DNA from: Opitutia bacterium
GTDB taxonomy: Bacteria > Verrucomicrobiota > Verrucomicrobiia > Opitutales > T3Sed10-336
Assembly (NCBI GenBank): GCA_003558065.1
Contig: PWMU01000047.1
Coordinates: 1 to 64,000, forward strand
Direction: 5' to 3'
Length of the DNA stretch: 64,000 bases
Below the pieces are notes generated by a model that did no database searches, was not told the origin of the DNA, and saw nothing but the letters and a program-made list of their open reading frames with translations. This document shows positions 1-39,163 of this stretch, piece by piece. Numbering within the stretch: the first letter of the stretch is position 1; each line of letters starts with the position of its first letter. The position numbers and the translations under genes were made by a program.

Positions 1-123
1 GTTCGCGATACGGCCCCATTGCGAACGTTTCAGGAAATGAAGGTCACATTTGAGAGCGGAGAAAACTTGCCTGAGGGAATGTTCGAGAATGAGCACAGGC
101 TCGCGTATTATTACCTCTGGTAG
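1..123 (+). CDS. C-terminal end of an unrecognised protein (partial)
   Basis: Frame 1 is open from the window edge to a TAG at 121-123, giving 40 residues ending in EHRLAYYYLW. The composition (acidic and aromatic, no runs of Arg or Pro) looks more like protein than a shadow frame, but it is too short to recognise. It lies in the stretch left of the tmRNA att-like repeats and so may belong to an integrated element. What lies upstream of the window decides whether it is real. Confidence 0.3.
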   Translation, partial: VRDTAPLRTFQEMKVTFESGENLPEGMFENEHRLAYYYLW

Positions 124-229
124 GTCCCGTACCTAAAATACTTGCACGAGAATACCTTGGAAGCATATCATACTCGTCGATGGCACGGCCCTGGCTGACG
201 AGGTTGAAGGCGCTCATCGGGACTTCCTG

Positions 230-1304
<1,075 letters not shown>

Positions 1305-7240: not shown

Positions 7241-8125
7241 GTGCCGATGCGGTATATTGAACCACATGGCCACATGGTGAGCCGGACTACGGACGACTAC
7301 CTCGCGATGGTTACGGCCGGTTGCCGGGCGGTTTGCGAACCGGCATTCTGGGCGGGCTACGACCGGAAGTCGGTTGACGGATTCTATGATTATTTCTGCC
7401 AGCTGACCGATTACGAGCCGAAGCGGGCAGCGAAATTCGCGCTGCCTCACTTTAGTTGGCTCTGCCTCAATCCGAAGGAGGCCGAGGATACCGGGCTCGC
7501 CGACGACGTGCTCGCGTTGATTCCACAGTTTCTGGATCGACCGAACGTGTTGGGAATCGGCGAGATCGGTCTTAACAAAAATACGCGCAACGAACTGAGT
7601 GTGCTCGAAAAGCACATCGACCTGGCTGCGCGTCATGATCAGCTCATTCTCGTGCACACGCCCCACCTGGAGGACAAGCTCAAAGGGACCCGGCTGATTG
7701 TGGATGCGATTCTCGGCGACAAGCGTATCGAGCCCGCCCGCGTGATTATCGACCATGTCGAGGAGCATACGGCACCGCTGGTGCTGGATAAGGGATTCTG
7801 GGCCGGCATCACACTTTATCCCGAGTCGAAATGCACGTCCGCGCGTGCCGTCGATATGCTCGAGATGTACGGCCGGGAACGGGTCTGGCTCAACTGTGCG
7901 TGTGACTGGGGGGTCAGCGATCCGCTGGCGGTGCCGAAGACGGCGCTGGAGATGCGCAAACGCGGGCACTCCGAAGAAACGATCGACCGGGTACTCTACG
8001 CGAACCCCCGGAGGTTCCTGCTGCAGAGTCCCCGGTTTGCGGCGGTTTTCGGAGATGAAGGGATGATTTTTCCGACGGTTCCGTCCGGCAAAAGGAGTTT
8101 GAGTCCAACCCGGGACAGTTTCTAG
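7241..8125 (+). CDS. TatD-family metal-dependent hydrolase, EboB-type
   Basis: 294 residues from GTG 7241; ATG 7247 is an alternative. This is a TIM-barrel amidohydrolase of the TatD superfamily. Putative metal ligands are the N-terminal HxH (PHGHM, residues 9-11), Glu in GIGEIGLNK, His in LVHTPH, His in IIDHVEEH and Asp in CACDWGVSD. It differs from the classic TatD at 15.6 kb by starting almost at the HxH and by its CDWG motif, and resembles the EboB branch of ebo clusters. The other ebo-type genes of this window lie at 29-34 kb. It is 10 bp before the next gene, so likely in an operon with a lipoprotein and a sugar-type oxidoreductase. Its substrate is unknown. Confidence 0.75.
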
Positions 8126-8135
8126 GGTTGGGAGT

Positions 8136-9506
8136 ATGTGCGGCGTATCATTCTCATACAAGTCATTCAGGTCCGTCCCGGAGGGTGGCCGGGCGGTTCG
8201 CTCCCTTCAGGCGGCGGCGATCTTCGTGCTGTTTGCCGGCTGCGGGGAGGCGGTTTTCGGCGAAAACAGGGAGGATACCATGAACTACCGAGTGATCGAG
8301 CATTATTACGGTCCGGAGATCCGGTTCCACGACTGGCAGCCCGCCCGCGGCGACTTTGTGACGGACCAGCGGGAGATCCGCCGCCGCTGGCCGGACGAGC
8401 TGCGCGGGGAAGGGCAAGCGTTGATCCTGGCCGGCGGCGCGCTGCAGGTTTTTGCGAAAGAACCGTCACTCGTGACCCGCAGTGATTATCCCTACGGGGG
8501 CGGCGGCGACGTAGAACTGTGCGCCCGGTTTCATTTTGAGCGCATGGGGGACGACGGCAGCGTGGCCTTTCACTTCAACGACGATGCGAACGGCGGGGGG
8601 AAAGCCGGTTTCAGGGTGGTGTTCGAGCCGGGAAGAATCACCGCCTTTCTCCGCGGAGAGGAGATTTACAGCGGCGCCTTCGACCGTTTCCAAAGGGAGG
8701 TGCAGCACCTGCTGAAGCTGGTCACCCTGGCGGACCGTTACGCGATTCTGCTCAACGGCCGGCTATTGGCGGAAGGGGAGATGGATACGACGAGGGGCGA
8801 CAACGAAGGGTGGACCCACCTCGCGGTTGAAGACGCGGCGATCGAGTTGACCGGGTTCGAGGAGAATTTCATCGAACACGATGTCGAGTTTCCGGACTGG
8901 GAACGGACGGAACAACTGTACCGGGAGTCGTTCGGCCCCGAATCGTACGAAGAAAACTGGGTTCTCAACGGGGAAGCGCCGGAGGTTGCGGAGGATTTCT
9001 TTATTGTCCGCAACATGGGCAACCTCATCCTCAGAGAGAGGTTTGAAGGGCCCGTCGCGGTGGATATTGAGGCGTCGCAGGTGACGATGGAGGATGAGTA
9101 CAGCGCGGGTGTGACCGACGCCATCTTTATTTGGATGATGGACAAAGCCGACGGCGATCTGTTCGAGTATTTGAAATCGCTGGACAACGCCTCTTTGCGC
9201 AATCTCATGGAGATCCCGTTTTACTGGGTTGACTTTGGCGGCTCCAATAACGTGACCACGCGCTTTCGCAAGAATCCCCACAGGTGGATGATTCGCCAGT
9301 TTCAGGACCGGCCCCGGTTGCTCGAACGGGACCGGATTTACCAGATAACACTGGTTCAGAACGGGAACCTGACCGAGTTCTGGGTTGACGGCGATCCGTG
9401 GATCCGTGCCTACGATCCGGATCCGCTGAGATCGGGTCACATCGCTTTTCGTGCCTTTATCGGGGATTTGAAAGTCGAAAGCCTCGAAGTCTGGAGGATC
9501 GAGTGA
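8136..9506 (+). CDS. Lipoprotein with lectin/glucanase-fold (DUF1961/DUF6250-like) domains
   Basis: 456 residues from ATG 8136. A hydrophobic stretch AAAIFVLFAGC with a lipobox-like LFAGC near residue 36 suggests a lipoprotein signal. The mature part looks like two beta-sandwich units: one with HFERMGDDGSVAFHFND and a second with YRESFGPESYEENWVLNGEAP. The second resembles DUF1961-type concanavalin-like domains common beside polysaccharide genes. A good Shine-Dalgarno (GGGAGGA) precedes an internal ATG at 8281, so a cytoplasmic form starting MNYRVIEHYY is possible. It overlaps the next gene by four bases (GTGA), implying coupling. Carbohydrate binding or processing is inferred from fold and context only. 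Confidence 0.6.
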   Translation: MCGVSFSYKSFRSVPEGGRAVRSLQAAAIFVLFAGCGEAVFGENREDTMNYRVIEHYYGPEIRFHDWQPARGDFVTDQREIRRRWPDELRGEGQALILAGGALQVFAKEPSLVTRSDYPYGGGGDVELCARFHFERMGDDGSVAFHFNDDANGGGKAGFRVVFEPGRITAFLRGEEIYSGAFDRFQREVQHLLKLVTLADRYAILLNGRLLAEGEMDTTRGDNEGWTHLAVEDAAIELTGFEENFIEHDVEFPDWERTEQLYRESFGPESYEENWVLNGEAPEVAEDFFIVRNMGNLILRERFEGPVAVDIEASQVTMEDEYSAGVTDAIFIWMMDKADGDLFEYLKSLDNASLRNLMEIPFYWVDFGGSNNVTTRFRKNPHRWMIRQFQDRPRLLERDRIYQITLVQNGNLTEFWVDGDPWIRAYDPDPLRSGHIAFRAFIGDLKVESLEVWRIE

Positions 9507-12943: not shown

Positions 12944-14197
12944 CTATCCTTGTGAAAGGGCGCCGAGATGTCTATCGAAATGTGCTTCCAACGCCTGCCG
13001 GTGTTCCGCGCTGTGCTTTTCGAGCGTTTCGAGGAGGGCTTCTCGAAAAGGACGGCCCGCGGCGTTCCTGCCTTCCGAGAGAACGGAGCCGAAGGTGACG
13101 TGGAGCAGTTGCCGCACGGGCCGTTCTTCGAAAAAGAGCCGTTCCGAACCCGAGCCGCTTTTTTTGAGCGCCTCCCGGATCTCTTCGTCGGTGGTTGAGA
13201 TATGATACGAGCGCCGGTCTTCAGCGAAACGTTCGCCGCAGTACTCCAGGATTTCCCGGAAAAGGCCGGGGTTGACCCGGAACACGGTGCGGAGGGCTTC
13301 GAGGTAACTGGTTCCCGCCGTTTTCACGTGGAGGAGGTTCCCGCAGACCCGTCCGAGTATCGGGTAGATGCTGAATTTGTCGGAGCCGCTGTGGACGCTG
13401 ATCTTGTAGGGCCCGTAGCGTTCGGCTATCGCGACGTGCTGTTTGAGGGTGGTTTCGAACTCCTCGAGGTCTCCGCGGTAGTCGATGCCTTTTTCGAACT
13501 CGCCGATGAATCGCGGGGCCAGGCTGACGATCCGAATACCCCGTCGTTTCAGTTCGAGGGCGATAAAGAGATGCTCCAGGGGGCTGGTTGGCGAGGCGGT
13601 TTCGTCGACTGAAATCTCGATCTCGTAGCCCCCGTAGCCGTTGGCGGAAGCAATGGCAGCGGCCATCTTCTCGCAGTGGGCGAGGGCGCGCGCGTATTTG
13701 CCGGCCGCGCGGTAAAGGGTCTCCCTGTCGAAGCGATAAACGGTTCCCCCGGCGGCAAATTTCTCTCCGAGGAACCGGTCGTCCCAGTCAAGCGTGGTAA
13801 AGACCCCTTCGGAGTAGAGTTCCTCGACCGCGGCCATCAGCGTGCCGAACGGCTGCGCATCAGCCTGGTCGTTGACGAATTCGGAGGGATCGATGGTGTA
13901 GAAGGTGAACCCGGCCGTCGACGTTGGGGCGACATCATTTTCCGTTTTAAGGTGGTCGGCGTCGGCGCCCCATGCCCCCTGGTAATTCGCTGCTTTCAGG
14001 GCGTCGACCGCGGCCTTCATCACGTCGGCCGGGGTGCGGCCTGTGCGCGACATTTCGCGGATCGATTGCTGGGCGAAGATGGGCGCGAAATCATACTTAT
14101 TGTTGACTTCGAGGTGCCCGCGAGTGGCGAGGCCGAGGCGATCACCGTACCCGAATGATTTTTTCAGGCCGAGAAGTTGGGGAGAGATGGAAGCCAT
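12944..14197 (-). CDS. uxaE: Tagaturonate epimerase
   Basis: 417 residues, family length. UxaE interconverts D-tagaturonate and D-fructuronate, a shortcut in galacturonate catabolism known from Thermotoga and found in many polysaccharide degraders. Recognised from the overall sequence, including FGYGDRLGLATRGHLEV, GAWGADADHLKTE, YKISVHSGSDKFSIYP and the YHISTTDEEI region; His and Asp residues in these are likely metal ligands. It is the first gene of the operon uxaE-nagB-two membrane proteins. A 25-bp inverted repeat lies 14-38 bp before the start codon and may be the operator. No other hexuronate genes are in the window. Confidence 0.85.
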   Translation of the reverse strand: MASISPQLLGLKKSFGYGDRLGLATRGHLEVNNKYDFAPIFAQQSIREMSRTGRTPADVMKAAVDALKAANYQGAWGADADHLKTENDVAPTSTAGFTFYTIDPSEFVNDQADAQPFGTLMAAVEELYSEGVFTTLDWDDRFLGEKFAAGGTVYRFDRETLYRAAGKYARALAHCEKMAAAIASANGYGGYEIEISVDETASPTSPLEHLFIALELKRRGIRIVSLAPRFIGEFEKGIDYRGDLEEFETTLKQHVAIAERYGPYKISVHSGSDKFSIYPILGRVCGNLLHVKTAGTSYLEALRTVFRVNPGLFREILEYCGERFAEDRRSYHISTTDEEIREALKKSGSGSERLFFEERPVRQLLHVTFGSVLSEGRNAAGRPFREALLETLEKHSAEHRQALEAHFDRHLGALSQG

Positions 14198-27356: not shown

Positions 27357-27959
27357 TTAGAAGTTGTAGCGCAGGCCGCCGAGCAGCCCCAACTCGCCGT
27401 CTTCGATATCGACCTCCCCGATGAGACCGAGCTCCTGGGTCAGGAAGTACTGGACGGTTCCCGTGATCCCGATCCAATTGTCGTCGATGTCGCCGCCGAA
27501 GAAGACGTGACGGATCTCGCCCGCGAATTCGAAGTCCTCGTTCAGGCGATGGCGGATGCCCCCGCGGACGCTGAATCCGACTTCATCGATGCTGCCGCCG
27601 CCGAATTGCCCCGGCAAATCCAGGTCCATGTATTCAATGGCCGGGCCGGCGTAAAGGTCGGTGTCCTCAAGAATCTTGTACCGGTAGGCGGCGCCGAAAT
27701 GGGCCTGCGTGAAGTCGATGTCATCCGTAAGGTAGCGCAGTTGACCGAAGAGGAATACCTCGGGAGCCACGAGGGCAGCGCCACGGACGCGCACGCCGAC
27801 GTAATCCTGGCTTCCGGGGCCCGCACCGTAGCTCGGATAAAGGGCGAGATTCCCCTCCAGGTAGTTATAGTTGATGCCTTCGGGCGCCACAGTTTGCGCC
27901 GATGCGGTCACCGCACCCATCATTCCGGCTGTGAAAAGTGTAATTAAGGTTTTTTTCAT
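27357..27959 (-). CDS. Small outer-membrane beta-barrel protein
   Basis: 200 residues with a signal peptide (MKKTLITLFTAGMMGAVTASA) and eight-strand-like barrel sequence (YRYKILEDTDLYAGPAIEYMD, SVRGGIRHRLNEDFEFAGEI) ending LRYNF. It resembles OmpA/OprF-N or YfaZ-like barrels in size. It has no extra periplasmic domain. Function unknown; the neighbouring porin is convergent and not in the same operon. Confidence 0.75.
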   Translation of the reverse strand: MKKTLITLFTAGMMGAVTASAQTVAPEGINYNYLEGNLALYPSYGAGPGSQDYVGVRVRGAALVAPEVFLFGQLRYLTDDIDFTQAHFGAAYRYKILEDTDLYAGPAIEYMDLDLPGQFGGGSIDEVGFSVRGGIRHRLNEDFEFAGEIRHVFFGGDIDDNWIGITGTVQYFLTQELGLIGEVDIEDGELGLLGGLRYNF

Positions 27960-28110
27960 AGTGATATTTTCTGCGTTTTCTTTTGTAGCGTTTAGTCCTG
28001 ATGCCGTGTCGGCCCGATTCCGGGCCTTTGGCAGGGTTTTTCATTTTGTCGGGGTTGTAGCCCCAATCGTCAAGGAAGAACTGTTGGGTGTCTTTAAAAA
28101 ATCGTGACAC
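27865..28110 (-). CDS. Possible small basic protein after fabD
   Basis: An 81-codon frame from GTG 28110 begins SRFFKDTQQFFLDDWGYNPDKMKN and then becomes very basic (KRYKRKRRKYHY). Its last third overlaps the outer-membrane protein gene in another frame. It starts 31 bp after fabD. The first 50 residues look protein-like, but the overlap and the weak start keep this doubtful. Confidence 0.2.
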   Translation of the reverse strand: MSRFFKDTQQFFLDDWGYNPDKMKNPAKGPESGRHGIRTKRYKRKRRKYHYEKNLNYTFHSRNDGCGDRIGANCGARRHQL

Positions 28111-28141
28111 GAACCGCCGGTTCCGGTCCGGATGAAGAATG

Positions 28142-28999
28142 TCACGTCCGGGCCTTCTGGATTTTTCTCAGGAGTCCGGCTAGTACTTTGCCGGGCCCGA
28201 CCTCTTCGAAATCCGCACCAGGGGCTTGGTCGAGGAGGTAATCGATGGACTCGGTCCACCGGACCGAGCTGACGATTTGCTCGGTGAGGTTGGCTGGGAT
28301 CTCATCGTCCTTGTAGGGACGGGCCGATACGTTCGCAACGACGGGAAACGCGGTTCTGGAAAAAGTGAAGGATTCGAGGAAACGGGCGAAGGATTCAGCC
28401 GCCGGCTTCATGTAGCGGGAATGAAAGGCGGCGCTCACTTTGAGCGGGACGACCATGCGGGCCCCGGCGTCCTTGAAAACCGGCCCGGCCCGGTCGAGGT
28501 CCTCTTTTGGGCCGGAAATCACGGTTTGATCCGGGGCATTCAGGTTGGCGATGTCGATCGAATCGAGGCTGTTCCCGCGCAGCGCGTCTTCGATCTTCCG
28601 CCGGTCGAGTCCCACGATCGCGGCCATGCCGCCGCCGGTGGCCTCGCCCATCAACCGCCCCCGTTCCTGAACCAGGCGAAGGCCCGTTGCGAAATCGAAC
28701 ACTCCGGCCGCCAGCAGGGCGTTGTACTCGCCGAGACTGTGACCGGCCGCGAAAGCGGGCGCTTCAGCGCCGTCCTCCAGCGTTTGCATCCATGTGAGGG
28801 CGTTGACGACGTAGAGGGCGGGTTGCGTGTGCTGAGTGAGGTTCAGTCTGCCTTCCGGATCCTCAAGACAGAGTTGCTCGATCGAGTAACCGAGGACCTC
28901 GTCGGCGGTACGAACCTGGTCGCGGAAGCGCGGGAAGAGTTCCGCACCCATGCCGGGTGCCTGGGAACCTTGTCCGGGAAAAAGGAATACTCGGGTCAT
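28142..28999 (-). CDS. fabD: Malonyl-CoA:ACP transacylase
   Basis: 285 residues. FabD transfers malonyl from CoA to acyl carrier protein for fatty acid elongation. N-terminal FLFPGQGSQAPGMG, the nucleophile serine in AAGHSLGEYNAL, Arg in LVQERGRLMGEA, and the second catalytic His in SAAFHSRYM are all visible. It lies downstream of the ebo-like genes on the same strand after a 113-bp gap. No other fab genes or acpP follow. A dedicated role with a polyketide or lipid product of the ebo-like genes is conceivable but not shown. Confidence 0.93.
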   Translation of the reverse strand: MTRVFLFPGQGSQAPGMGAELFPRFRDQVRTADEVLGYSIEQLCLEDPEGRLNLTQHTQPALYVVNALTWMQTLEDGAEAPAFAAGHSLGEYNALLAAGVFDFATGLRLVQERGRLMGEATGGGMAAIVGLDRRKIEDALRGNSLDSIDIANLNAPDQTVISGPKEDLDRAGPVFKDAGARMVVPLKVSAAFHSRYMKPAAESFARFLESFTFSRTAFPVVANVSARPYKDDEIPANLTEQIVSSVRWTESIDYLLDQAPGADFEEVGPGKVLAGLLRKIQKART

Positions 29000-29112
29000 T
29001 GGCGGGTGGTAAGTGTTAAGTGAAGAGCGACGAAAACGGGAAATCGTTTTCTATAGGGTCCGAAAACGGTCGGTGTCAATCTTGCAGCGGAGGCCGGTTG
29101 GCCTCCGGGGTC

Positions 29113-30498
29113 TCATTCGTTCCGGCCGGGGGCCACCATTTGCCGGATGCGGTCCTTCACGTTGGTGGAGCCGATCGAGGCCGGCAGGTCGGGGACCGGG
29201 TGGCCGGTGATGAAGACCGGGTGGTTTCCCTCGTCTTCCGGGATGCGTCCGTGGGAGCCTTTCACGAGCGCGGGGTCCAGCGGAATTACATCGAGCAGCG
29301 TGCGGAATCCGAGTTTCTTCTTCAGAAAAAACTTCATAAGCTTGAGCCTGGGAAATCGGATCTCGGGATCCAAGAAGAGTTCGACCGGGTCGAATCCGGG
29401 TTTGCGGTGGATATCGACGCAGCGTGCGAAATCCGGAGCCTTGCGGTCGTCATTCCAGTAATAGTAAGTAAACCAGCAGCGGGGTGCGGCGATGGCGATC
29501 AACTCGCCGGCGCGTGGGTGGTCGAGTCCCCGGGCGTTTTTTTCTTTCGCTCCCAGAACTTCGGCCACGCCCGCGGTTCTCTCCAACACCCGGCGGACCT
29601 CGGGCTCGATCGAGGGGTCGTTGATGTAGATATGCGCGACCTGGTGGTCGGCGACCGCGAACGCCCGGCTCGCGCCGCAGTCCAGAAGTTCCAGGCCCAG
29701 CTCGTCCTTGACGGTGATCCATCGCTTGTCCCGGAAGACCCGGTTCAGGTGGACGGGTGTATTGACTCCCTCGATACCGTACTCCGAAAGGACCGCGACC
29801 CGGATCCCGCGTTGGGTGAAGAAGTCGATAAGCTCTCCGGCGATGGTATCGATTTCTTCCAGGTCGCCGGCGATGGCGGGGTCACCCGGACCCAGGCGCT
29901 GAAGGTTGTAATCAAGATGCGGCAGGTAGATCAGGCTGAGCGTGGGCGAGTGTTTTTCCTCGAACCAGCGGGCGGATCCGGCGATCCACCGGGAGGAATC
30001 CGATGCGGACAGAGGACCCCAGAAAGTGGGGAAAGGAAACTCGCCGAGGTCCTTCTTGATTTCGTGGCGCACTGTCATGGGGTGGGTGTAGACGTCGAAG
30101 ACCTTGCGTCCGTCCGCCGGATACATCGGTCTCGGGGTGATCGAGTAATCCGCTGAGGAATACATATTGTACCACCAAAAGAGTTTGGCGCAGGTGAAGG
30201 ACGGGTCCGCGGCCTTCAGCTCGTCCCAGATCTTGGGAGACCGGACGAGTCGCTCGGGCTGCTTCCAGAACTGGACTTCCGCCAGGTCCCGGTTGTACCA
30301 GCCATTGCCGACAATCCCGTGTTCCGAGTGGCGTTTGCCGGTGACGTAATCGTACTGGGCCGTGCAGGTGACGGCGGGAAAAGCCGGGTCGATCCTTGCC
30401 AGGCTACCCCCGGAGGCGAACGCTTTCAGGCGGGGCGTATGGTCCCCGATCAGCGAGCCGCAGAGGCCGACGATATTGATGACAGCGGTGCGTTGCAT
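29113..30498 (-). CDS. Alkaline phosphatase-superfamily phosphodiesterase, EboF-type
   Basis: 461 residues of the nucleotide pyrophosphatase/phosphodiesterase fold. The nucleophile is probably Thr in FPAVTCTAQYDYVTG; the family insertion HSEHGIVGNGWY follows. Two canonical metal motifs differ from classic NPP enzymes: the usual DHG segment reads SEYGIEG here, and DxxxHxxG reads DYNLQRLG. C-terminal DHQVAHIYI provides another His. No signal peptide is seen. It is the last of the - strand eboC-D-E-F set, 208 bp after eboE. In ebo clusters this gene is needed with the others for trafficking a metabolite to the periplasm; the substrate here is unknown. Confidence 0.78.
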   Translation of the reverse strand: MQRTAVINIVGLCGSLIGDHTPRLKAFASGGSLARIDPAFPAVTCTAQYDYVTGKRHSEHGIVGNGWYNRDLAEVQFWKQPERLVRSPKIWDELKAADPSFTCAKLFWWYNMYSSADYSITPRPMYPADGRKVFDVYTHPMTVRHEIKKDLGEFPFPTFWGPLSASDSSRWIAGSARWFEEKHSPTLSLIYLPHLDYNLQRLGPGDPAIAGDLEEIDTIAGELIDFFTQRGIRVAVLSEYGIEGVNTPVHLNRVFRDKRWITVKDELGLELLDCGASRAFAVADHQVAHIYINDPSIEPEVRRVLERTAGVAEVLGAKEKNARGLDHPRAGELIAIAAPRCWFTYYYWNDDRKAPDFARCVDIHRKPGFDPVELFLDPEIRFPRLKLMKFFLKKKLGFRTLLDVIPLDPALVKGSHGRIPEDEGNHPVFITGHPVPDLPASIGSTNVKDRIRQMVAPGRNE

Positions 30499-30706
30499 GG
30501 CGACAGCCTACGGCGGGCAGGTGCCGGTTAAAGTTCAAAGTTCATGCGGGAGGAGTCATGCAGTTGGCTCTTACCGGTTTCAGAGAGGATTTTGTGTTCG
30601 TGCAATTCCGAGACCGTCGGTAAACGCCGTGACTCGCAGGATCTCGGGCGGAAGACCCGCCTTTAACGATGAACCTCGAGGCCTGAACCGGCGGTTCCGC
30701 GGCGTC

Positions 30707-31900
30707 CTATCCAAGCCGTTCCAGTACCCAGCGAAACTCTTTTTCGATACTGTCCACTATCGACTCGCGTCCCAGGGCCTCCGGAAAGACATCGAAAGTG
30801 TAGGTTTCGATCTCGAGATGAGGGCAGTCGCCCTTTTGCAGGAACTTGAAGAATGCGGGGTTCAGGCACGGGGCGGTGGAACTCAGGGGGCCGTTGTTTT
30901 CGAAGTACAGAGGAACGTGAAAATGGACGCGGATACGTTCGATGTCGGACTTGAGCGGAAGCGAATCGAGCGCGGAGGGGAGGTCGGTCCAGCTCTCGAG
31001 CCCGCCGTCGCGGCGCCGTGCACGGACCTGGTGGAGGTACACCGGTTCGTCAAAGGCCCGCAGGGCCTCGAACGCTTCAGGCGAGGGTTCGGCCTCGAGG
31101 GCGTTACTGAACTGGATTTTGGACAGACGAATACCTTCGTCCCGGTAGCGGCGACAGGATTCGGCGAGATCCTCGAATTGAAGAGCGAGGTGGCAGGTGT
31201 CCACGCAGACACCGATGTGGCGCCGAAGGGTCTCTTCCGCCTCGGAACGGGTGAGCCCGCTTTGTCCGGCAATTCGTCCCGCCCCTTCCCGAAAGAGGTT
31301 TTCCCGGAAAAAGCGGAGGGCTTCCGGGGTGGATTCCAGAAGGCAGTCGGGTTCGGGCTCGAGGCCGAGGTGAATCTCCTTTCCGCTTTCTTCGTACAGG
31401 CGTTTGAGGTGAAGCGCGGCTTCGGCGAGCCGTCCGACGATAGCGGAGTTTTGGCGGGGGTCGCGGAGCCAGGATTTATAGGATCCCGGAACGGTGCTGA
31501 TGCTCCCTTCCTGTCCTTCGGGCAGGAGGACCGCGAGAATGTCGGCCAGGCGACAGGTGTAGCGGAGGCGTTCCTCGGTTTGCCAGTCGGGTTGGTATAC
31601 TTTCTCCTTCACCGAGGCTCCATGGAAACGGCCGTAGGGAAAGCCGTTGATAGTGAAGGCGTAAAAATTGTGCGCCTCCAGGAATTGGCGTGCGGCGCGG
31701 CGGGTTTCCGGCGAGTTCAGATCCTCCGTCGCCCGCACGCCCAGGCGCAGGCCCAGGCCGAAAGGAGCTTCTCCGGAAAGACGGTCGCGGAGGGCGCCGG
31801 CATGAGTTTGCACTGATTCCCGGACCTCTTCCCAGGTTTCACCCCGGTGGACATTCAGGCAGTAGGTCAGGTGGCGTGGCGGCTCGGTCGAAAGTTTCAT
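30707..31900 (-). CDS. eboE: Metabolite traffic protein EboE (xylose isomerase-like TIM barrel)
   Basis: 397 residues from ATG 31900, which overlaps the eboD stop (ATGA) and so is coupled to it. TIM-barrel segments include LTYCLNVHRGETWEEV, GLEPEPDCLLES, GVCVDTCHLALQFED, RVHFHVPLYFE and HLEIETYTFDVF, with Glu, His and Asp in positions for a metal site. The NVHPGE-like opening and the HVPL and EIETYT segments fit EboE. Reaction unknown. Confidence 0.8.
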   Translation of the reverse strand: MKLSTEPPRHLTYCLNVHRGETWEEVRESVQTHAGALRDRLSGEAPFGLGLRLGVRATEDLNSPETRRAARQFLEAHNFYAFTINGFPYGRFHGASVKEKVYQPDWQTEERLRYTCRLADILAVLLPEGQEGSISTVPGSYKSWLRDPRQNSAIVGRLAEAALHLKRLYEESGKEIHLGLEPEPDCLLESTPEALRFFRENLFREGAGRIAGQSGLTRSEAEETLRRHIGVCVDTCHLALQFEDLAESCRRYRDEGIRLSKIQFSNALEAEPSPEAFEALRAFDEPVYLHQVRARRRDGGLESWTDLPSALDSLPLKSDIERIRVHFHVPLYFENNGPLSSTAPCLNPAFFKFLQKGDCPHLEIETYTFDVFPEALGRESIVDSIEKEFRWVLERLG

Positions 31901-33162
31901 AGTGTGGCGGCGCGATCCTTCAGATAAACGAGTGCTTGCTCTATACCGGTGTGATCCACGCTGTCGACTTCGAATCGGTTGCCGATGCCCTGTGGAAACG
32001 TGAGAGTGAGTTCGCCGCCGAGGTGTTCGCGGAAATCCTCCAATCCCTTCAGGAGTTGCAGTTTGCCGGCGGGGTCGAGCCATTCGTTCTCCGGGTACCA
32101 CAAGGGAAAGCCGGAAGCCTTCAAGCCCTCGTAGATCGATTCGAATTCCTGCTCCGCGAGCCAGCCGCGGTCGGCTGCGTAACGGGCATCAAGGGCCAGG
32201 CCCATAGCGACGGCATGCCCGTGGCCGATACGGTAATTGGACAGAATTTCCAGTTTATGGGCGCTCCAATGCCCGAAGTCCAGCGGCCGCGCCCGGCCGA
32301 ACTCAAACGGATCCCCGTTGGAACGGATATGATCCAGGTGGAGCTCGGCGCAACGCCGGACCAGTTCGGCCATGAGGTCTTCGTTCCGGTCGCGCAGGCC
32401 GGGAGCCGCCCCGCACAGAAAACGGAAGAAGGCGGCGTCCTTGATGATCGCCACCTTGAATGCCTCGGCGATTCCCCCGACCCATTCGCGTTCAGGGAGT
32501 GTCGTGAGAAAGTCGCGGTCGTTGAGGACGGCGAACGGGGGTGCGAAGACGCCGATGGCGTTCTTAACGCCGTCGAGGTTGATGCCGTTCTTCACGCCGA
32601 CGCCGGCGTCATTTTGCGCGAGAACGGTGGTTGGCACCCGCACGAGGCGGACCCCGCGGTGAAGGAGCGAGGCGGCCAGGCCCACCGAGTCGAGCATCGC
32701 GCCTCCGCCGATGGCAATGATGTAGGACTGGCGGCAAACACCGCGGCGAAGGGAATCCCTCAGGGTGTCAATGGCGAGATCCAGACCTCCTTTGGCCGCT
32801 TCTCCTCCGGGAAATACTTCCGGTGCTGTAATGAGTTCCAGGGCATCGCCGTGGGTCTCAAAATACCCCTCCACTTTTTGGGCGAGGCCGGGCTGCATCG
32901 CCGCGACCTGGTCGTCGATGTAGACGCGAGCCCGGTGCCGACGGTCCTCGGAAAGCCGTTCCAGGGTGTTCTTCAGGACCGGATTTCTCGGAGAAAAAAG
33001 ATCCCGTGTGAAAACAACCGGATACTCGAAGGTTACGGAAAATGCCTGCCGGAACGGTTTGGAGGAAAAGCCATCCTTCGCGACGGGTGGCCGGCGGCCG
33101 GACGCGCAGAGGTGCGTGGCTCCCTCGGCCGGCGACGTAGAAGTGTGTGGATTGGCTTCCAT
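31897..33162 (-). CDS. eboD: EboD, 3-dehydroquinate synthase-like sugar-phosphate cyclase
   Basis: 421 residues from ATG 33162; the longer frame overlaps eboC and is not used. The NAD-binding loop AIGGGAMLDSVGLAAS and RVPTTVLAQNDAGVGVKNGIN match the dehydroquinate synthase family. Metal ligands fit Glu in VGGIAEAFKVA, His in LDFGHWSAHKLE and His in GHGHAVAMG. The enzyme may cyclise a sugar phosphate, by analogy to AroB-like cyclases, but no product is known for the ebo branch. It starts 11 bp after eboC and overlaps eboE by four bases. True aroB for aromatic biosynthesis is probably elsewhere. Confidence 0.82.
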   Translation of the reverse strand: MEANPHTSTSPAEGATHLCASGRRPPVAKDGFSSKPFRQAFSVTFEYPVVFTRDLFSPRNPVLKNTLERLSEDRRHRARVYIDDQVAAMQPGLAQKVEGYFETHGDALELITAPEVFPGGEAAKGGLDLAIDTLRDSLRRGVCRQSYIIAIGGGAMLDSVGLAASLLHRGVRLVRVPTTVLAQNDAGVGVKNGINLDGVKNAIGVFAPPFAVLNDRDFLTTLPEREWVGGIAEAFKVAIIKDAAFFRFLCGAAPGLRDRNEDLMAELVRRCAELHLDHIRSNGDPFEFGRARPLDFGHWSAHKLEILSNYRIGHGHAVAMGLALDARYAADRGWLAEQEFESIYEGLKASGFPLWYPENEWLDPAGKLQLLKGLEDFREHLGGELTLTFPQGIGNRFEVDSVDHTGIEQALVYLKDRAATL

Positions 33163-33173
33163 TAACGTGCTGT

Positions 33174-34106
33174 TCAACTGGAATAAAACCATCTTGCCAA
33201 CCGACGTTGCAAGGGCCAAAGACAAAAGACGGCGGCTCCGAGAGCCACGTTCGGCGGAGTCGGTCCGGAAGCAACGATAAGGGCGGACTGCAGCGGAATC
33301 AAGGCGCCGATCCATTTACCGATCAGGGGCGGGATGCTCGACACGTTTGTACCTGCGGCGAGGGAAAATCGCACGCTTGCGCCGATGCACACAGTGAGAA
33401 AGGCGACCCAGCTCAGCGCAAATACTGCCCATTGAAGTAGGTGGGCCGGCGTGGAGATTGTAAAATAGGCTGCCAGTCCGATCACCGAAACAGCGGCGGG
33501 GAGCCAGCCTTCCCAGGATCGATAGCCTCCCTCGGTTTCCTTGTGAGCCAGCCAGGTGACCGCGGCAATATACACGGTGACCAGGCAGGCCGCCCAGATC
33601 AGCAGCGAAGGGGGCGTGTCGATTGGGCTCACCGCTGTCGCGGCAGCCGCTCCGAGCGAAAGATTGAGCCCGCGGCAGAGTCCCATGTTCAGAGCTGCCG
33701 CAAGCCGTTGCCGCTTGGTTAGAAAGTTGTAGGCGAGGACCGCTCCCGCCAGGAGGATCGCACAAATCGACGCCGCGATTCCCGCCAGAAGGGGAAGCAG
33801 GATTCCTGCCGCGAGCAGGACGAATCCCATCCGCAAGGCGTTTCTCGGCGGAACGGCGCCGCTTGGAATGGGACGATCCGGGCGGGCGCGACGGTCCTCT
33901 TCGAGGTCCACCCAGTCATTAAAGACCAAACCGGCGCCGTAAAGGCAGAAGCTTGCCGAAATGACCGCTCCCGTGATCAGAGGGGCGTGGAGCACCCCGC
34001 CGGTCGCCAGAAGTGCTCCCGCGAGCACGTCCCCAGGAAGCGTAAGCAGATTCGGGAGACGGAAGAGCGCCAGCCAGGCTGCACCCTCATGCCTGCGTCC
34101 GGTCAC
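33174..34106 (-). CDS. eboC: EboC, UbiA-like prenyltransferase
   Basis: 310 residues, GTG start overlapping the stop of the DUF6807 gene (GTGA). A UbiA-type membrane protein with seven or more helices. The first prenyl-diphosphate motif is visible as FNDWVDLEEDRRARPDRPIPSG; a canonical second Asp motif is not obvious. Helices include LLLIWAACLVTVYIAAVTWL. UbiA enzymes attach prenyl chains to aromatics or use them as carriers; in ebo clusters the acceptor is unknown. It is followed by eboD. Confidence 0.82.
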   Translation of the reverse strand: MTGRRHEGAAWLALFRLPNLLTLPGDVLAGALLATGGVLHAPLITGAVISASFCLYGAGLVFNDWVDLEEDRRARPDRPIPSGAVPPRNALRMGFVLLAAGILLPLLAGIAASICAILLAGAVLAYNFLTKRQRLAAALNMGLCRGLNLSLGAAAATAVSPIDTPPSLLIWAACLVTVYIAAVTWLAHKETEGGYRSWEGWLPAAVSVIGLAAYFTISTPAHLLQWAVFALSWVAFLTVCIGASVRFSLAAGTNVSSIPPLIGKWIGALIPLQSALIVASGPTPPNVALGAAVFCLWPLQRRLARWFYSS

Positions 34107-35350
34107 GGTTCCTGGACTGTTACCGTTACGCCGACCGGCTCGACAAAATCCCGGTAGATTCTGGCGAAGTAATCATGCGAGGTATCTTCGGTCTTGCTCG
34201 CCCGCTTGATCAGGATGCGGTACCGCAAAGTGAGTGGCGTTTCTTCCTCCAGATCGGCGGTGAAGAAAGCTCCGAAGCGCCCGTAGTTGCGGGTGGAATA
34301 GTGTGTCGGACCCGGATTGGACGGATGATCGGCGTGAAAGACACTGTAACGGTGGCGATTGACTGTGAAGAGACCGACGAACCAGGGCGCGTCCTCCCAG
34401 ATGTCGTTGGAGAGCGATACGGCCGATTCGGGGTGAATGAAGGCGGTGGTTTCCTGGTTCTCGGCGACCTCCTGGGACGCGCGGAACTGGAAACCGGCGT
34501 GATGGGCGTCACCCCCGAGATGGACATCGCCGGTTGCCGCGGTCAATTCGATCGCAAAGTCAAGGATCAGAGTGTCTTCGTCTACCCACCATGCGGTGAC
34601 TTCGCGGGTGTCGGTTACGAGGATCCGCTCCTCGGGATCCTTCCAGTCGGTGCGCGACGCCGTCCGGCCCACTACGGGGCCGGTGATTTCACGCTCCGAA
34701 AGGTACTCGCGGTGGCGCTGGGTTTCCTGATTCGGGCCGTACCAGAAGTCCCAGCTGTCATCGCCGCTCCGCGTCCGGTTCCATCCGAGGAAGAGACCGC
34801 GGTGGTGCGAGTAGAGCCCGCCGTGTCCCTTGGTGATAAAGCCGTCACCGTCGAAATGATAAATGTGGTGAAAGGTTTTGAAGGTTTCTTCGTGACGATC
34901 CGGATCGTAGGCGTTCATGTGCCGGTAAACGGCCCGGTCTCCGTAGTGGAGGTTGCGGTACCCGTTGCCGTGATCAAAGTGGAATCCGGTTTCGTTCCGG
35001 TCGTTTGGTTCGGACTTGAGCACGAGCCGGTAGGTTTTCCTCTGTCCGCTCCGCAACTCCGGCTGGACCCAGTAGACCCTTGCGAACGTCGCTCCTTCCT
35101 TATCGATTCGTTCCACCTGGGTTCGCCATCCGGGCCGGAATCCTTCCGGGTCGACGATGTAGCAGAACAAATCCTCTACATCCGCGTGTGATTCAGGGAG
35201 GGGCAGATCGGCGATCACTGAAACATTCTTTCGGGCGATTTCCTTCGGATCGAGCTCTACCTCGTAATCCAGGTTGCCGATCCCCTTGGTGGGCAACGTG
35301 CCTGCAAGGAGAAGGCTCAGGGCGGAAAGGAGGAAGGAGGTCAGGCTCAT
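34103..35350 (-). CDS. DUF6807 family secreted protein heading the ebo-like operon
   Basis: 415 residues from ATG 35350 with a signal peptide (MSLTSFLLSALSLLLAGTL). The frame goes on to 35392 but the signal peptide starts here. The beta-rich body is typical of DUF6807, often auto-named PmoA (methane oxygenase) although it has no relation to methane oxidation. Recognised segments are GNGYRNLHYGDRAVYRHMN, FHHIYHFDGDGFITKGHGG, YSHHRGLFLGWNR and HAGFQFRASQEV, with several His clusters. Homologues often sit near sugar oxidoreductases. The four-base overlap with eboC implies shared translation, so its product is made with the ebo-like proteins. It is presumably periplasmic; function unknown. Confidence 0.72.
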   Translation of the reverse strand: MSLTSFLLSALSLLLAGTLPTKGIGNLDYEVELDPKEIARKNVSVIADLPLPESHADVEDLFCYIVDPEGFRPGWRTQVERIDKEGATFARVYWVQPELRSGQRKTYRLVLKSEPNDRNETGFHFDHGNGYRNLHYGDRAVYRHMNAYDPDRHEETFKTFHHIYHFDGDGFITKGHGGLYSHHRGLFLGWNRTRSGDDSWDFWYGPNQETQRHREYLSEREITGPVVGRTASRTDWKDPEERILVTDTREVTAWWVDEDTLILDFAIELTAATGDVHLGGDAHHAGFQFRASQEVAENQETTAFIHPESAVSLSNDIWEDAPWFVGLFTVNRHRYSVFHADHPSNPGPTHYSTRNYGRFGAFFTADLEEETPLTLRYRILIKRASKTEDTSHDYFARIYRDFVEPVGVTVTVQEP

Positions 35351-35823
35351 AAGCGGTGGTCCGGATTGGTTTGGTGTGACGATAAATCCCATCCTGTTTC
35401 CAAATGCTGGTCAAGGAAAGAGGGAAGCTCCGGCGGGAGGCCGTGTTCAACCCTTCGTCGCCGGGCCGGTATTCCATTCGGTCTCGAGAGGCCTTCCGGT
35501 TCCGGGCAGCATCCCTTCGCAGCCGGTGTTTGCATCCCCCGGGGTCAGCCACGGGCCGGCAGCAGTGGCATTCACGTGCCTTTGCCGGCCGGAGGCCGCG
35601 GCCTCCGAGGCAAAGGATTTGTCGGGGGAAGGCACGCTTCGGGTCGCCGCCGGCTCCGGGATACACCCGGTTTGGAAAGGGGACCGGCCAAAAGGCTTGA
35701 CCTCCGAAAGAGAGAGAAAACATAGTTGAATACCGGTTTTGGTCTCTTGATCGGCGCCGGGATGGTTATCCCGTCGTTTCAAGAAGCTGACCGCGTGAAA
35801 CCGTCACTATCGATCCCTTTACT
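35351..35823. other. GC-rich intergenic region between divergent operons
   Basis: All six frames are largely open here because of high GC, but none has a convincing start, signal or family resemblance. The region must hold the promoters for the DUF6807-ebo operon (-) and tctCBA (+). A long imperfect hairpin at 35579-35616 is the only structure noted. Confidence 0.5.
35579..35616. repeat. Long imperfect hairpin in the intergenic region
   Basis: Outer arms CCTTTGCC and GGCAAAGG enclose an inner perfect stem GGAGGCC-GC-GGCCTCC. There is no T-run. It could end transcription from upstream or be an extragenic palindrome. Confidence 0.5.
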
Positions 35824-36837
35824 ATGAAACGACCATTTACTCTCCTGCTGGCAACGGTGCTCCTTTTCTCATTCGGGTGCGAACAGATTGATGAGGATTA
35901 TCCTTATTCGTGGAAGCCCGAGCGTCCGATGACTATTATCGTTCCCTGGGCCGCCGGCGGGTCGACGGACCAGGTGACCCGGGTTGCCGCGAAGGAACTC
36001 GAGAACGCCCTCGGTCAAACGGTGGTGATTGCCAATCAGTCCGGCGCCTCGGGTTCGATCGGCACCCGAAACGCCCTGCGGGCCGATCCCGACGGTTACA
36101 CCTGGACCTCCGGCGCCGCGTCGAGTCTGGGGACGTATTCCGTTCTGGGGCTTGTGGATACGGATCTCGACGACTGGCATCTGTTTCTGACCGTCGCCAA
36201 TGTGGCGGTGGTAAGCGTTAATCCCGATTCGCCGTATGAGGATTTCGGTGACTTGCTTGCTGCGATGGAAGAGGATCCGAGGATCTCCGTGGCTACGGCC
36301 GGAACGGCTTCGAGCGGACACAATGTGATGGACCTGATCAGCAAGACCGCGGGCGTGGACTACCGTCATGTGAGTTATGACGGCGGCAATCCGGCGGTGA
36401 TTTCAACGGTCTCGGGCGAGACCCAGGTGACGACGCTACTGGCGACCGAACAGGTGGAAATGATCCGTGGCGAGCGGCTCCGTCCTCTCGCCACACTCTC
36501 GAAGGAACCCCTTGAAATCGAAGGCTACGGCGAGATTCCTTCGATATACGAATGGTTGCCGGATATCGATTACGCCACGAATTATTTTGGCATCTGGGTT
36601 CGCAAGGGCGTTCCCGACGAGGTCCTGGAAACCATGGAACGGATTTGGGAGGAGCAGATAAGCAACTCCGAGGAGCTGAAGCGTTACGCTCGCCAGCAGG
36701 GGGCGATTCACACGCCTTATTACGGGGAAGACGCCAGGGAGCGTGTCTGGGAAAAGGTGAAGAGTGATGCCTGGGTCTTGTACGATTCGGGGCAGGCGGA
36801 GGTTTCACCGGAGGAACTCGGTATTCCGCGTCCTTAG
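35824..36837 (+). CDS. Tripartite tricarboxylate transporter substrate-binding lipoprotein (TctC)
   Basis: 337 residues. A lipoprotein signal (LLLATVLLFSFGCEQ; lipobox LFSFGC) anchors it, whereas many TctC proteins are free in the periplasm. The family core follows: RPMTIIVPWAAGGSTDQVTR, NQSGASGSIGTRNAL, GYTWTSGAAS and the C-terminal YFGIWVRKGVPDEV. TctC captures a carboxylated solute for the TctAB permease; the substrate is not predicted. tctB follows 128 bp later. Confidence 0.87.
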   Translation: MKRPFTLLLATVLLFSFGCEQIDEDYPYSWKPERPMTIIVPWAAGGSTDQVTRVAAKELENALGQTVVIANQSGASGSIGTRNALRADPDGYTWTSGAASSLGTYSVLGLVDTDLDDWHLFLTVANVAVVSVNPDSPYEDFGDLLAAMEEDPRISVATAGTASSGHNVMDLISKTAGVDYRHVSYDGGNPAVISTVSGETQVTTLLATEQVEMIRGERLRPLATLSKEPLEIEGYGEIPSIYEWLPDIDYATNYFGIWVRKGVPDEVLETMERIWEEQISNSEELKRYARQQGAIHTPYYGEDARERVWEKVKSDAWVLYDSGQAEVSPEELGIPRP

Positions 36838-36965
36838 TCTGGTAAGCGGAAACGGCAACGGCAATCGCTGCACAGGATTCTGCATGGATCAATTGAGGAT
36901 CGATCTTCACGCATTCCCGGGGTCTTGCCAGGGGAAGAACCGCGAGAGCCGCCGGGGTAAGTAGC

Positions 36966-37589
36966 ATGGCAAGCGACTCGCCAAGCGAGCACCGGGACGA
37001 CCAGCCGGCTGAGCTCCACTCGATGCTTCGTCTCGATCTGCTGAGCGGAGTGGCTTTCTCCGCCCTGGGATTGTTTATGGCGATCAAGTCGTGGTACATG
37101 CCGCGTCTGGAGCACCGCGATGTGAGTCCCTTCACCGTTCCGGGAATTGTGACCGGGGTGCTCGGCGGGGTGCTGCTCGTGCTGGGGATTTTCATGATCG
37201 TGCGCGCTGCGGCTAAAGGAGGATGGAGGTTCGCGGGGAGCGGAGCGGCGATTCGCGAAGCCTTGTTGACCAGAGGCGGAGCCAAGCTGTTGCTGACGCT
37301 TGGGCTGACCCTCGGCTACGCAGCGGGCTTGGTCGGCCGGATTCGGTTTGAGTGGGCGACGATTTTGTTCCTGTTTGTCTTTATTCTCCTTTTCGAATGG
37401 AACAAGCCGGCGGCCGGCGGGGACCAGCTCCGCGTCTTTCAGCGAATCGATGGGTTTTTCATGAGAGTGTTCGGCGGGACTGCCGGTCTCCGGATTAGAA
37501 CGATGGTGGCCGCGGCGATATTGGCGACGGTTGTTGCCTTTACGGTCGTGTACGTTTTTCAGGAGGTGTTCCGGATTCGCCTGCCCTAG
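36966..37589 (+). CDS. Tripartite tricarboxylate transporter small subunit (TctB)
   Basis: 207 residues with four hydrophobic helices (LLSGVAFSALGLFMAIKSW, GVLGGVLLVLGIFMIVRA, LLLTLGLTLGYAAGLVG, MVAAAILATVVAFTVVYV) as in the small TctB subunit. The order C-B-A fits the transporter. Its TAG stop is shared with the palindromic repeat copy at 37587. That could lower read-through to tctA, or protect the tctCB mRNA. Confidence 0.82.
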   Translation: MASDSPSEHRDDQPAELHSMLRLDLLSGVAFSALGLFMAIKSWYMPRLEHRDVSPFTVPGIVTGVLGGVLLVLGIFMIVRAAAKGGWRFAGSGAAIREALLTRGGAKLLLTLGLTLGYAAGLVGRIRFEWATILFLFVFILLFEWNKPAAGGDQLRVFQRIDGFFMRVFGGTAGLRIRTMVAAAILATVVAFTVVYVFQEVFRIRLP

Positions 37590-37620
37590 GAGTCTGTCGG
37601 GCTTCGCCGACAGACTCCTA
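37587..37620. repeat. Perfect palindrome, copy 2 (REP/terminator-like)
   Basis: The same 32 bases as at 4427-4458 (37588-37619 here), with an added T/A pair on the outside. It starts inside the tctB TAG stop and sits in the 44-bp gap between tctB and tctA, so it would form within the tctCBA transcript. No T-run follows. Confidence 0.8.
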
Positions 37621-37633
37621 ATTGATTTAAATT

Positions 37634-39163
37634 ATGCCTGAAGGATTTCAGTTTCTGCTGCAGGGGATCGTCAGTATTCTAACGTCTCCGGCTATCATTC
37701 ACGTACTCTGGGCGACACTGCTCGGTATTTGCGTGGGGATGCTGCCCGGATTGACCGCGACGCTCGGGTTGACGTTGCTGACCACCCTGACGCTCGGCAT
37801 GTCTTCGAACGATGCTATTCTGATTCTTATCTGCATGTACGTGGGCGCCATTTACGGGGGGAGCCGGAGCGCCATTCTGCTCAATATTCCCGGCACACCG
37901 GCGAGTGCGGCGACGTCGCTCGACGGCTTTCCACTGGCGCGGTCGGGGAATGTCGCCCAGGCAATGGGGATCGCCACGGCCGGGTCGGTCCTGGGAACGC
38001 TGATCGGCATGGTCTGCCTGGCTCTCTTTGCGCCGATGCTCGCCGAGTTTGCGCTGGACTTCGGTTCGTTCGAGTTTTTCTGGCTCGCGGTGTTCGGTAT
38101 CGTGATCTCCGGGCGCCTGACGGCGGCGGACGATCCGGTTAAAGGCTGGATTGCCGGCTTCATCGGGTTGAGCGTGGCGATGGTGGGTGAGGATCCGATT
38201 CATGCCTACGACCGCTTCAGTTTCGGAAACCCGGATCTTCGGGGCGGGTTCGACCTGTTGCCCGTCCTGGTCGGAGTTTTCGGGTTTGCCGAGATTCTCA
38301 CGGTGATGAAATCACCTGTTTACAAGGTCACCAAGAATGTCGCCGATTCGGTGATACCCAAGGTTCGGGAGGTTTTGGGGTACTGGAAGACGATTATTCG
38401 TTCCGGCATTACCGGAACCTTTACCGGGATCATTCCCGGGGTAGGCGAAGATATGGGGGCGTGGGCGTCTTATGCCATGGCCAAGGGCTTCAGCAAGGAG
38501 AGGGAAAAGTATGGCAAGGGGTCTGTCGAAGGGTTGATGGCGGCGGAAACAGGAAACAGCGCCTCGGTTCCGGGCTCGATCATTCCCGTATTAACACTGG
38601 CGATACCGGGATCCGCACCGGCCGCTGTGTTGCTGGCCGCGCTCTTTATTCACGGCGTCAATCCCGGTCCCTTGATCATGACCAACAATCCGGGGTTGGT
38701 GTTTGAAATCGTGGCAATGATCCTGTTCGCCAGCCTGGCCATTCTGGTATACGGGCTCCTTCTGACCAAGCCGTTGGTTCATATCCTGCGCGTTCCGAGC
38801 CAGAAGCTGATGCCGATTATTTTCGTTTTGTGCACGGTGGGCGCGTTCGCGGTGGCAAGCCGGGTGTTCGATATCTGGGTCATGCTCGGCTTCGGGGTGC
38901 TCGGCTTCATCCTTCGGGAAATGAAGTACCCGATGGCCCCGCTCGTCCTCGGCGTTGTCCTCGGCCCGATCCTCGACCAGAACCTGCGCCGAAGTCTCAA
39001 TCTGACCGACGGGGAATTGATCCCGTTCTTCACCCGTCCCATCTCCCTGACGCTCGTGATCATCATTGTGCTGACCCTGGCGCTCGGTTTCAAACCCGTT
39101 ACCAACGCCCTCAGGAAAGGTCTGAACAGGGTGTTTTCGGGATCCCTCGGGAACGGAACCTGA
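37634..39163 (+). CDS. Tripartite tricarboxylate transporter large permease (TctA)
   Basis: 509 residues with about a dozen hydrophobic helices. The TctA signatures are present: MLPGLTATLGLTLLTTLT near the N-terminus and GIIPGVGEDMGAWASYAMAKG in the middle, followed by GSVEGLMAAETGNSASVPGS. It forms the membrane channel with TctB and takes solute from TctC by ion-coupled transport. The set is complete, but no regulator (TctDE) is adjacent. Confidence 0.92.
   Translation: MPEGFQFLLQGIVSILTSPAIIHVLWATLLGICVGMLPGLTATLGLTLLTTLTLGMSSNDAILILICMYVGAIYGGSRSAILLNIPGTPASAATSLDGFPLARSGNVAQAMGIATAGSVLGTLIGMVCLALFAPMLAEFALDFGSFEFFWLAVFGIVISGRLTAADDPVKGWIAGFIGLSVAMVGEDPIHAYDRFSFGNPDLRGGFDLLPVLVGVFGFAEILTVMKSPVYKVTKNVADSVIPKVREVLGYWKTIIRSGITGTFTGIIPGVGEDMGAWASYAMAKGFSKEREKYGKGSVEGLMAAETGNSASVPGSIIPVLTLAIPGSAPAAVLLAALFIHGVNPGPLIMTNNPGLVFEIVAMILFASLAILVYGLLLTKPLVHILRVPSQKLMPIIFVLCTVGAFAVASRVFDIWVMLGFGVLGFILREMKYPMAPLVLGVVLGPILDQNLRRSLNLTDGELIPFFTRPISLTLVIIIVLTLALGFKPVTNALRKGLNRVFSGSLGNGT

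Follow-up and report, generated by a model that had tools for sequence, protein, structure and literature searches.

The ebo cluster (eboA-F) is widespread, and in Nostoc a compound does not reach the periplasm without it; the pathway is known but poorly understood. The study of Nostoc ebo mutants (PMC6282210) found the scytonemin monomer retained in their cytoplasm and put forward a sugar-lipid carrier. In PMC5133447, cyclisation of sedoheptulose 7-phosphate is the presumed role of EboD and prenylation that of EboC, and an EboC homologue farnesylates quinolines in vitro (PMC9235831). The DUF6807 family (PF14100) appears in passages of three papers, in a count of DUFs (PMC10971088), as the product of a gene that may form an operon with two genes for beta-galactosidases (PMC5342196) and as a PmoA marker (PMC10291797). 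These passages, from the open-licence PMC literature, contain no functional test, and the term 'PmoA' is absent from the 2016 ebo paper.

Here we describe a DUF6807 gene that immediately precedes eboC in a genome of the family T3Sed10-336. The window is the whole 64,000-nt stretch of DNA that was analysed, and its relevant features are listed in Table 1. A soluble partner with a confident structural model, encoded by a gene coupled to that of a membrane prenyltransferase, would be a direct handle on the ebo product. A link to eboC would also give the DUF6807 family a pathway context.

Table 1. Positions of the DUF6807 gene, the ebo genes and other genes of the window, with profile scores in bits and model cut-offs in parentheses
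Feature	Position	Strand	Details
DUF6807 gene	34103..35350	-	415 aa; ATG at 35350; PF14100 match
DUF6807 protein, domains	N-terminal beta domain, residues about 27-113; mutarotase-like supersandwich, residues about 122-405		hydrophobic leader precedes
eboC, UbiA-type prenyltransferase	33174..34106	-	GTG start; PF01040 78.2 (34.2)
eboD, sugar phosphate cyclase (3-dehydroquinate synthase-like)	31897..33162	-	NF004852 515.8 (333)
eboE, TIM-barrel protein	30707..31900	-	NF035939 430.8 (250)
eboF, type I phosphodiesterase-like	29113..30498	-	PF01663 183.3 (23)
fabD	28142-28999		after eboF
eboB-type TatD-like hydrolase	7241..8125	+	PF01026 34.3 (27); same contig
DUF6250 gene	8136-9506	+	after eboB-type gene, same strand
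tagaturonate epimerase UxaE-type gene	12944-14197	-	PF16257 449
TctC, TctB-like, TctA (tripartite tricarboxylate transporter)	35824-39163	+	divergent from DUF6807-ebo unit; kept in G106

The DUF6807 gene and the ebo genes of the window

The preliminary description of this locus placed the DUF6807 gene at the head of a co-directional ebo run, with its stop codon overlapping the eboC start. Both points are borne out by the sequence: C, D, E and F types lie downstream on the minus strand, and the DUF6807 TGA and the eboC GTG (34106) share the four bases GTGA. An in-frame ATG is also present upstream of the DUF6807 start, at 35392. The intergenic distances are -4 nt for DUF6807/eboC, +11 or -19 nt for eboC/eboD (the eboD start may be at 33162 or 33192) and -4 nt for eboD/eboE, followed by +208 nt for eboE/eboF and +113 nt for eboF/fabD. 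Thus, the tight unit consists of DUF6807, eboC, eboD and eboE, with eboF after a 208-nt gap. A promoter and terminator scan of positions 27900-36000 returned a single promoter-like site, on the plus strand, and four terminator-like sites (shuffled mean 9.0), which have no bearing on a shared transcript.

The DUF6807 protein belongs to its family by Pfam profile search (PF14100, 112.9 bits, cut-off 27, residues 134-389). Differences at the three codon positions (0.26, 0.21 and 0.52) follow a purifying pattern and show that the gene is under constraint at the protein level.

The name EboC denotes an EboC-type protein, by place and tree, and its scores lie below the equivalog cut-offs (156.1 of 250 for NF035940, and 167.9 of 260 for NF045897, the SCO3242 model). 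The EboD type was assigned through NF004852, with no match to an EboD-named model. The first Asp motif, NDxxDxxxD, is kept in all 21 aligned EboC rows, and the second, DxxxD, is missing at the aligned place in all 21, the window EboC among them (motif definition from PMC4106721). In an archaeal UbiA, both motifs matter in substrate binding, the second one less (same source). The chemistry of EboC is thus uncertain and may be unusual.

The eboB-type gene lies about 20 kb from the remaining ebo genes. Its product is 90% identical to a protein that adjoins fabD of the ebo set in G106, a second species of the same genus. The EboA model NF035938 matched none of eight genomes and none of 14 control genomes, so the search does not establish absence of EboA. 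In both the window and G106, fabD follows eboF (77% identical); a fabD profile had no match in the loci surveyed below (sets of 70 and 20).

Recurrence of the DUF6807-eboC pair

The genomes that matter most here are the window's genome (G000), G106, and G072, from another genus of the family. DUF6807 had been suggested as a partner of the ebo set, a suggestion that absence of the pair from all related genomes would have undone. A neighbourhood survey found DUF6807 beside eboC in three of eight family genomes, in two genera, and the related genomes with the pair are G106 and G072. The G106 homologue is 58% identical to the window protein, and the GTGA overlap between its reading frame and eboC is identical to that of the window, at a junction that spans two contigs: the homologue runs to the end of one, the other opens with a matching-frame tail and eboC, and the two ends have 15 bases in common. 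In G072, 23 nt separate a DUF6807 homologue (39%) from the gene downstream, which encodes EboC (44%). The G072 neighbours differ from those of the window, with an MFS transporter upstream of DUF6807 and with eboD and eboE on another contig. We note that an MFS gene precedes both the DUF6807-eboC and the eboD-eboE pair of this genome (L056 3682-5253 and L057 6423-7859). Given the overlap kept in G106 and the adjacency in G072, we conclude that the coupling is more than chance.

The subfamily of the window protein is present in three of the eight family genomes (804, 757 and 724 bits; next best 251). EboC is found in four, including all three subfamily carriers. The fourth, G085, has EboC adjoining a divergent EboD and is without DUF6807 of this subfamily, and the four genomes without EboC also lack the subfamily; the sample is small (n=8), with two genomes under 85% complete (67% and 82%). 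An association of DUF6807 with EboC that is conserved within one family is suggestive of function. DUF6807 and EboC (57%) also differ more between G000 and G106 than the other linked genes that were compared, as EboD, EboE, EboF, EboB, FabD, TctC and TctA are 72-93% identical. This pattern would fit co-evolution of the two proteins, but it would also fit weak constraint.

To place the pair in a wider context, ebo loci were read in genomes outside the family, in 89 of the 176 that have EboE (70, plus 19 usable of 20). The EboE-positive genomes number 180 in all, with four in the family; in the order, 31 of 132 genomes have EboE, and in the phylum 154 of 387. L189 is excluded from the 89 because its stretch came from the wrong contig and holds no ebo gene, and G037, G099 and G130 stand outside the 89, with short flanks only. 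Of the 89 loci, 47 have a recognised EboC (26 + 10 + 11, hand count). DUF6807 adjoins eboC in none of these 47, and none occurs anywhere in their stretches, which mostly extend about 8 kb to each side and are shorter at contig ends, so that neighbours may be hidden. A general ebo component role for DUF6807 is rejected on this result. The earlier proposal of a new ebo partner survives in a narrower form, with recurrent eboC adjacency in the family and a sugar-handling fold (see below) in its favour. As the pair recurs in the family and is absent beside eboC outside it, DUF6807 looks like a lineage-specific extra part of the ebo cluster.

Searches for the subfamily agree with a restricted distribution. 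A full-length match among the 387 phylum genomes was found in the window's genome only, in a set that is without G106 and G072, hence incomplete for the family, and for which mostly four candidates were scored per genome. Ten other genomes that match the subfamily profile at E up to 1e-40 all score under 200 bits. A wider profile scan of genome contigs returned two loci, which correspond to G106 and G072. PF14100 itself is encoded somewhere in 27 of the 31 EboE-bearing genomes of the order, so co-occurrence at the level of the genome alone means little.

A DUF6807 gene is found just 5' of a lone eboE in two loci of one genus, at 99 nt in L130 (7005-9503, with a sigma-70-like gene ahead) and at 220 nt in L173 (7372-10057). 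The sister genome G306 (L174) has no DUF6807 beside eboE, giving two of three genomes of that genus; L173 and L174 were chosen as sisters of L130 and are thus not independent. These DUF6807 proteins belong to a different subfamily and are 39-42% identical to the copy on contig 66 of G000. Their adjacency to eboE may be an independent link or chance.

Two lineages within the ebo cluster

Gene orders among 94 loci comprise 26 complete E-C-D-F, 10 C-F-D-E, one C-D-E-F and 57 partial arrangements. In quick trees (SH-aLRT support, no bootstrap), EboE, EboC and EboD of the window fall on the C-F-D-E side (99, 98 and 99, respectively), and the window EboF groups with EboF of the E-C-D-F clusters (100). 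EboB is also placed on the E-C-D-F side (100), in a tree that holds the G106 protein in place of the window protein.

Identities to the window proteins can be compared for loci with at least three genes. For C-F-D-E loci, the values are 34-46% for EboC, 44-57% for EboD, 42-52% for EboE and 31-36% for EboF, and for E-C-D-F loci they are 29-40%, 41-47%, 37-44% and 52-64%, respectively; the EboC alignments are often short. Judged by these placements, the window carries a mosaic ebo set, with EboC, EboD and EboE from one cluster lineage and EboF from the other. The ebo proteins of G085 are likewise divided, with EboC and EboD on the C-F-D-E side and EboE on the E-C-D-F side. Thus, mixing of the lineages is a feature of the family.

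Fold and possible roles of the DUF6807 protein

The AlphaFold model of DUF6807 has a pLDDT of 92.8 and a pTM of 0.90 (29 family members as alignment); the A2 alignment was the input for both the structure model and the survey profile. The protein is confidently predicted to have a beta domain at its N-terminus and a galactose-mutarotase-like supersandwich; its relation to PL26 and GalM is one of fold alone. VIA-align aligned residues 23-415 with the PL26 exo-rhamnogalacturonan lyase (5xqg; Z 19.2, rmsd 3.6, 328 aligned) and residues 122-385 with GalM (4bze_B; Z 17.0, rmsd 3.3, 223 aligned). Foldseek alone is weak, with a single match at E up to 0.001 (TM 0.27). By sequence, phmmer found no solved chain in the PDB at E up to 1, and the profile returned two chance matches only, to viral VP1 (E about 0.8). 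GalM membership by sequence was rejected, as hhalign against seven GalM-type proteins was insignificant (probability 0.8%, E 0.071).

Six residues, H182, H183, W203, R290, W323 and R354, are invariant in the 29 aligned DUF6807 proteins. The HH pair is thus a family motif, and the His-rich segments to which attention had been drawn are partly accounted for by such motifs. In the model, a hydrophobic helix spans residues 3-17, with no Lys or Arg before it in the window species; the leader of the G106 homologue is more typical. The protein is probably exported.

Our tentative proposal, possible rather than probable, is that DUF6807 partners EboC as an exported protein that handles a sugar or cyclitol, and that its gene is an accessory gained by the ebo cluster of this family. 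In the cytoplasm, EboD, EboE and EboF would prepare a headgroup derived from a sugar or cyclitol, and EboC would join it to an isoprenoid in the membrane. After this sugar or cyclitol moiety has come to face the periplasm, exported DUF6807 would bind or modify it. The DUF6807 gene may have come with, or been added to, the EboC/D/E set of one ebo lineage, which would now work with EboB and EboF of the other. Doubts arise because G085 has EboC without DUF6807, the pair is absent from all 47 outside loci, the fold match is structural only and the leader is without a basic residue. A more specific version, which we regard as unlikely, is that DUF6807 is a periplasmic mutarotase-fold enzyme that processes the headgroup of an EboC-made isoprenoid carrier, brought in together with an EboC/D/E set that took the place of the native genes.

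It is also conceivable, if somewhat doubtful, that DUF6807 serves ordinary sugar catabolism, owes its place in an operon with eboC to descent and is functionally unlinked to it. The genome of the window has six PF14100 copies, the family is common in EboE-bearing genomes of the order, and the pair was seen in three genomes only. The 57 neighbour ORFs of 14 other DUF6807 copies also lean to sugar metabolism. Gfo/Idh/MocA oxidoreductases and xylose-isomerase-like proteins are the commonest (three each), and single glycosidases and lyases also occur. These ORFs comprise 55 of 66 listed (11 overlapping or doubtful ones were left out) and a further two that were picked by eye, L107:4548-6068 and L058:1883-3760. 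As the three Gfo/Idh/MocA matches include the former, their count is inflated, and there was no control set; thus, the neighbours indicate only a lean towards sugar metabolism. Against simple descent, G072 retains the pair (39-44% identity) amid different neighbours, and G106 retains the GTGA overlap.

The protein might instead be non-catalytic, a binding protein that is exported or faces the membrane and that stabilises EboC or holds the headgroup in place of, for example, EboA. Coupling to the gene of a membrane protein is consistent with this role, as is the use of supersandwich folds as binding domains (the YidC periplasmic domain is among the Foldseek matches). The EboA model is unmatched in the eight genomes searched, as it is in every control. 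The invariance of the polar residues H182, H183, R290 and R354 in 29 proteins suggests a site, and we consider a purely binding role quite unlikely. Finally, it is very improbable that DUF6807 belongs with the divergent TctC-TctB-TctA transporter rather than with ebo: TctC and TctA adjoin it in the window and G106 (85% and 93% identical), but the Tct genes are on the opposite strand, and the link is rejected because the 9-kb DUF6807 contig of G072 keeps EboC adjacent with no Tct gene seen.

In comparison with known systems, the proposed exported partner of EboC has the domain and invariant motifs of the PF14100 family; its subfamily differs in having an N-terminal beta domain and was found at full length in only three genomes. 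The two-domain fold over residues 23-415 is common to the PL26 lyase 5xqg, a target of 896 residues with 8% identity and a fold match unaccompanied by any sequence match to solved chains. The supersandwich is common to GalM (4bze), a likeness by fold alone. The window resembles the ebo cluster eboA-F, as described in PMC5133447 and PMC6282210, in having EboC, EboD, EboE and EboF types in one run, with EboB elsewhere on the contig. It differs from that cluster in the DUF6807 gene coupled ahead of eboC, in the order C-D-E-F and in the apparent origin of EboC/D/E and EboF from different cluster lineages.
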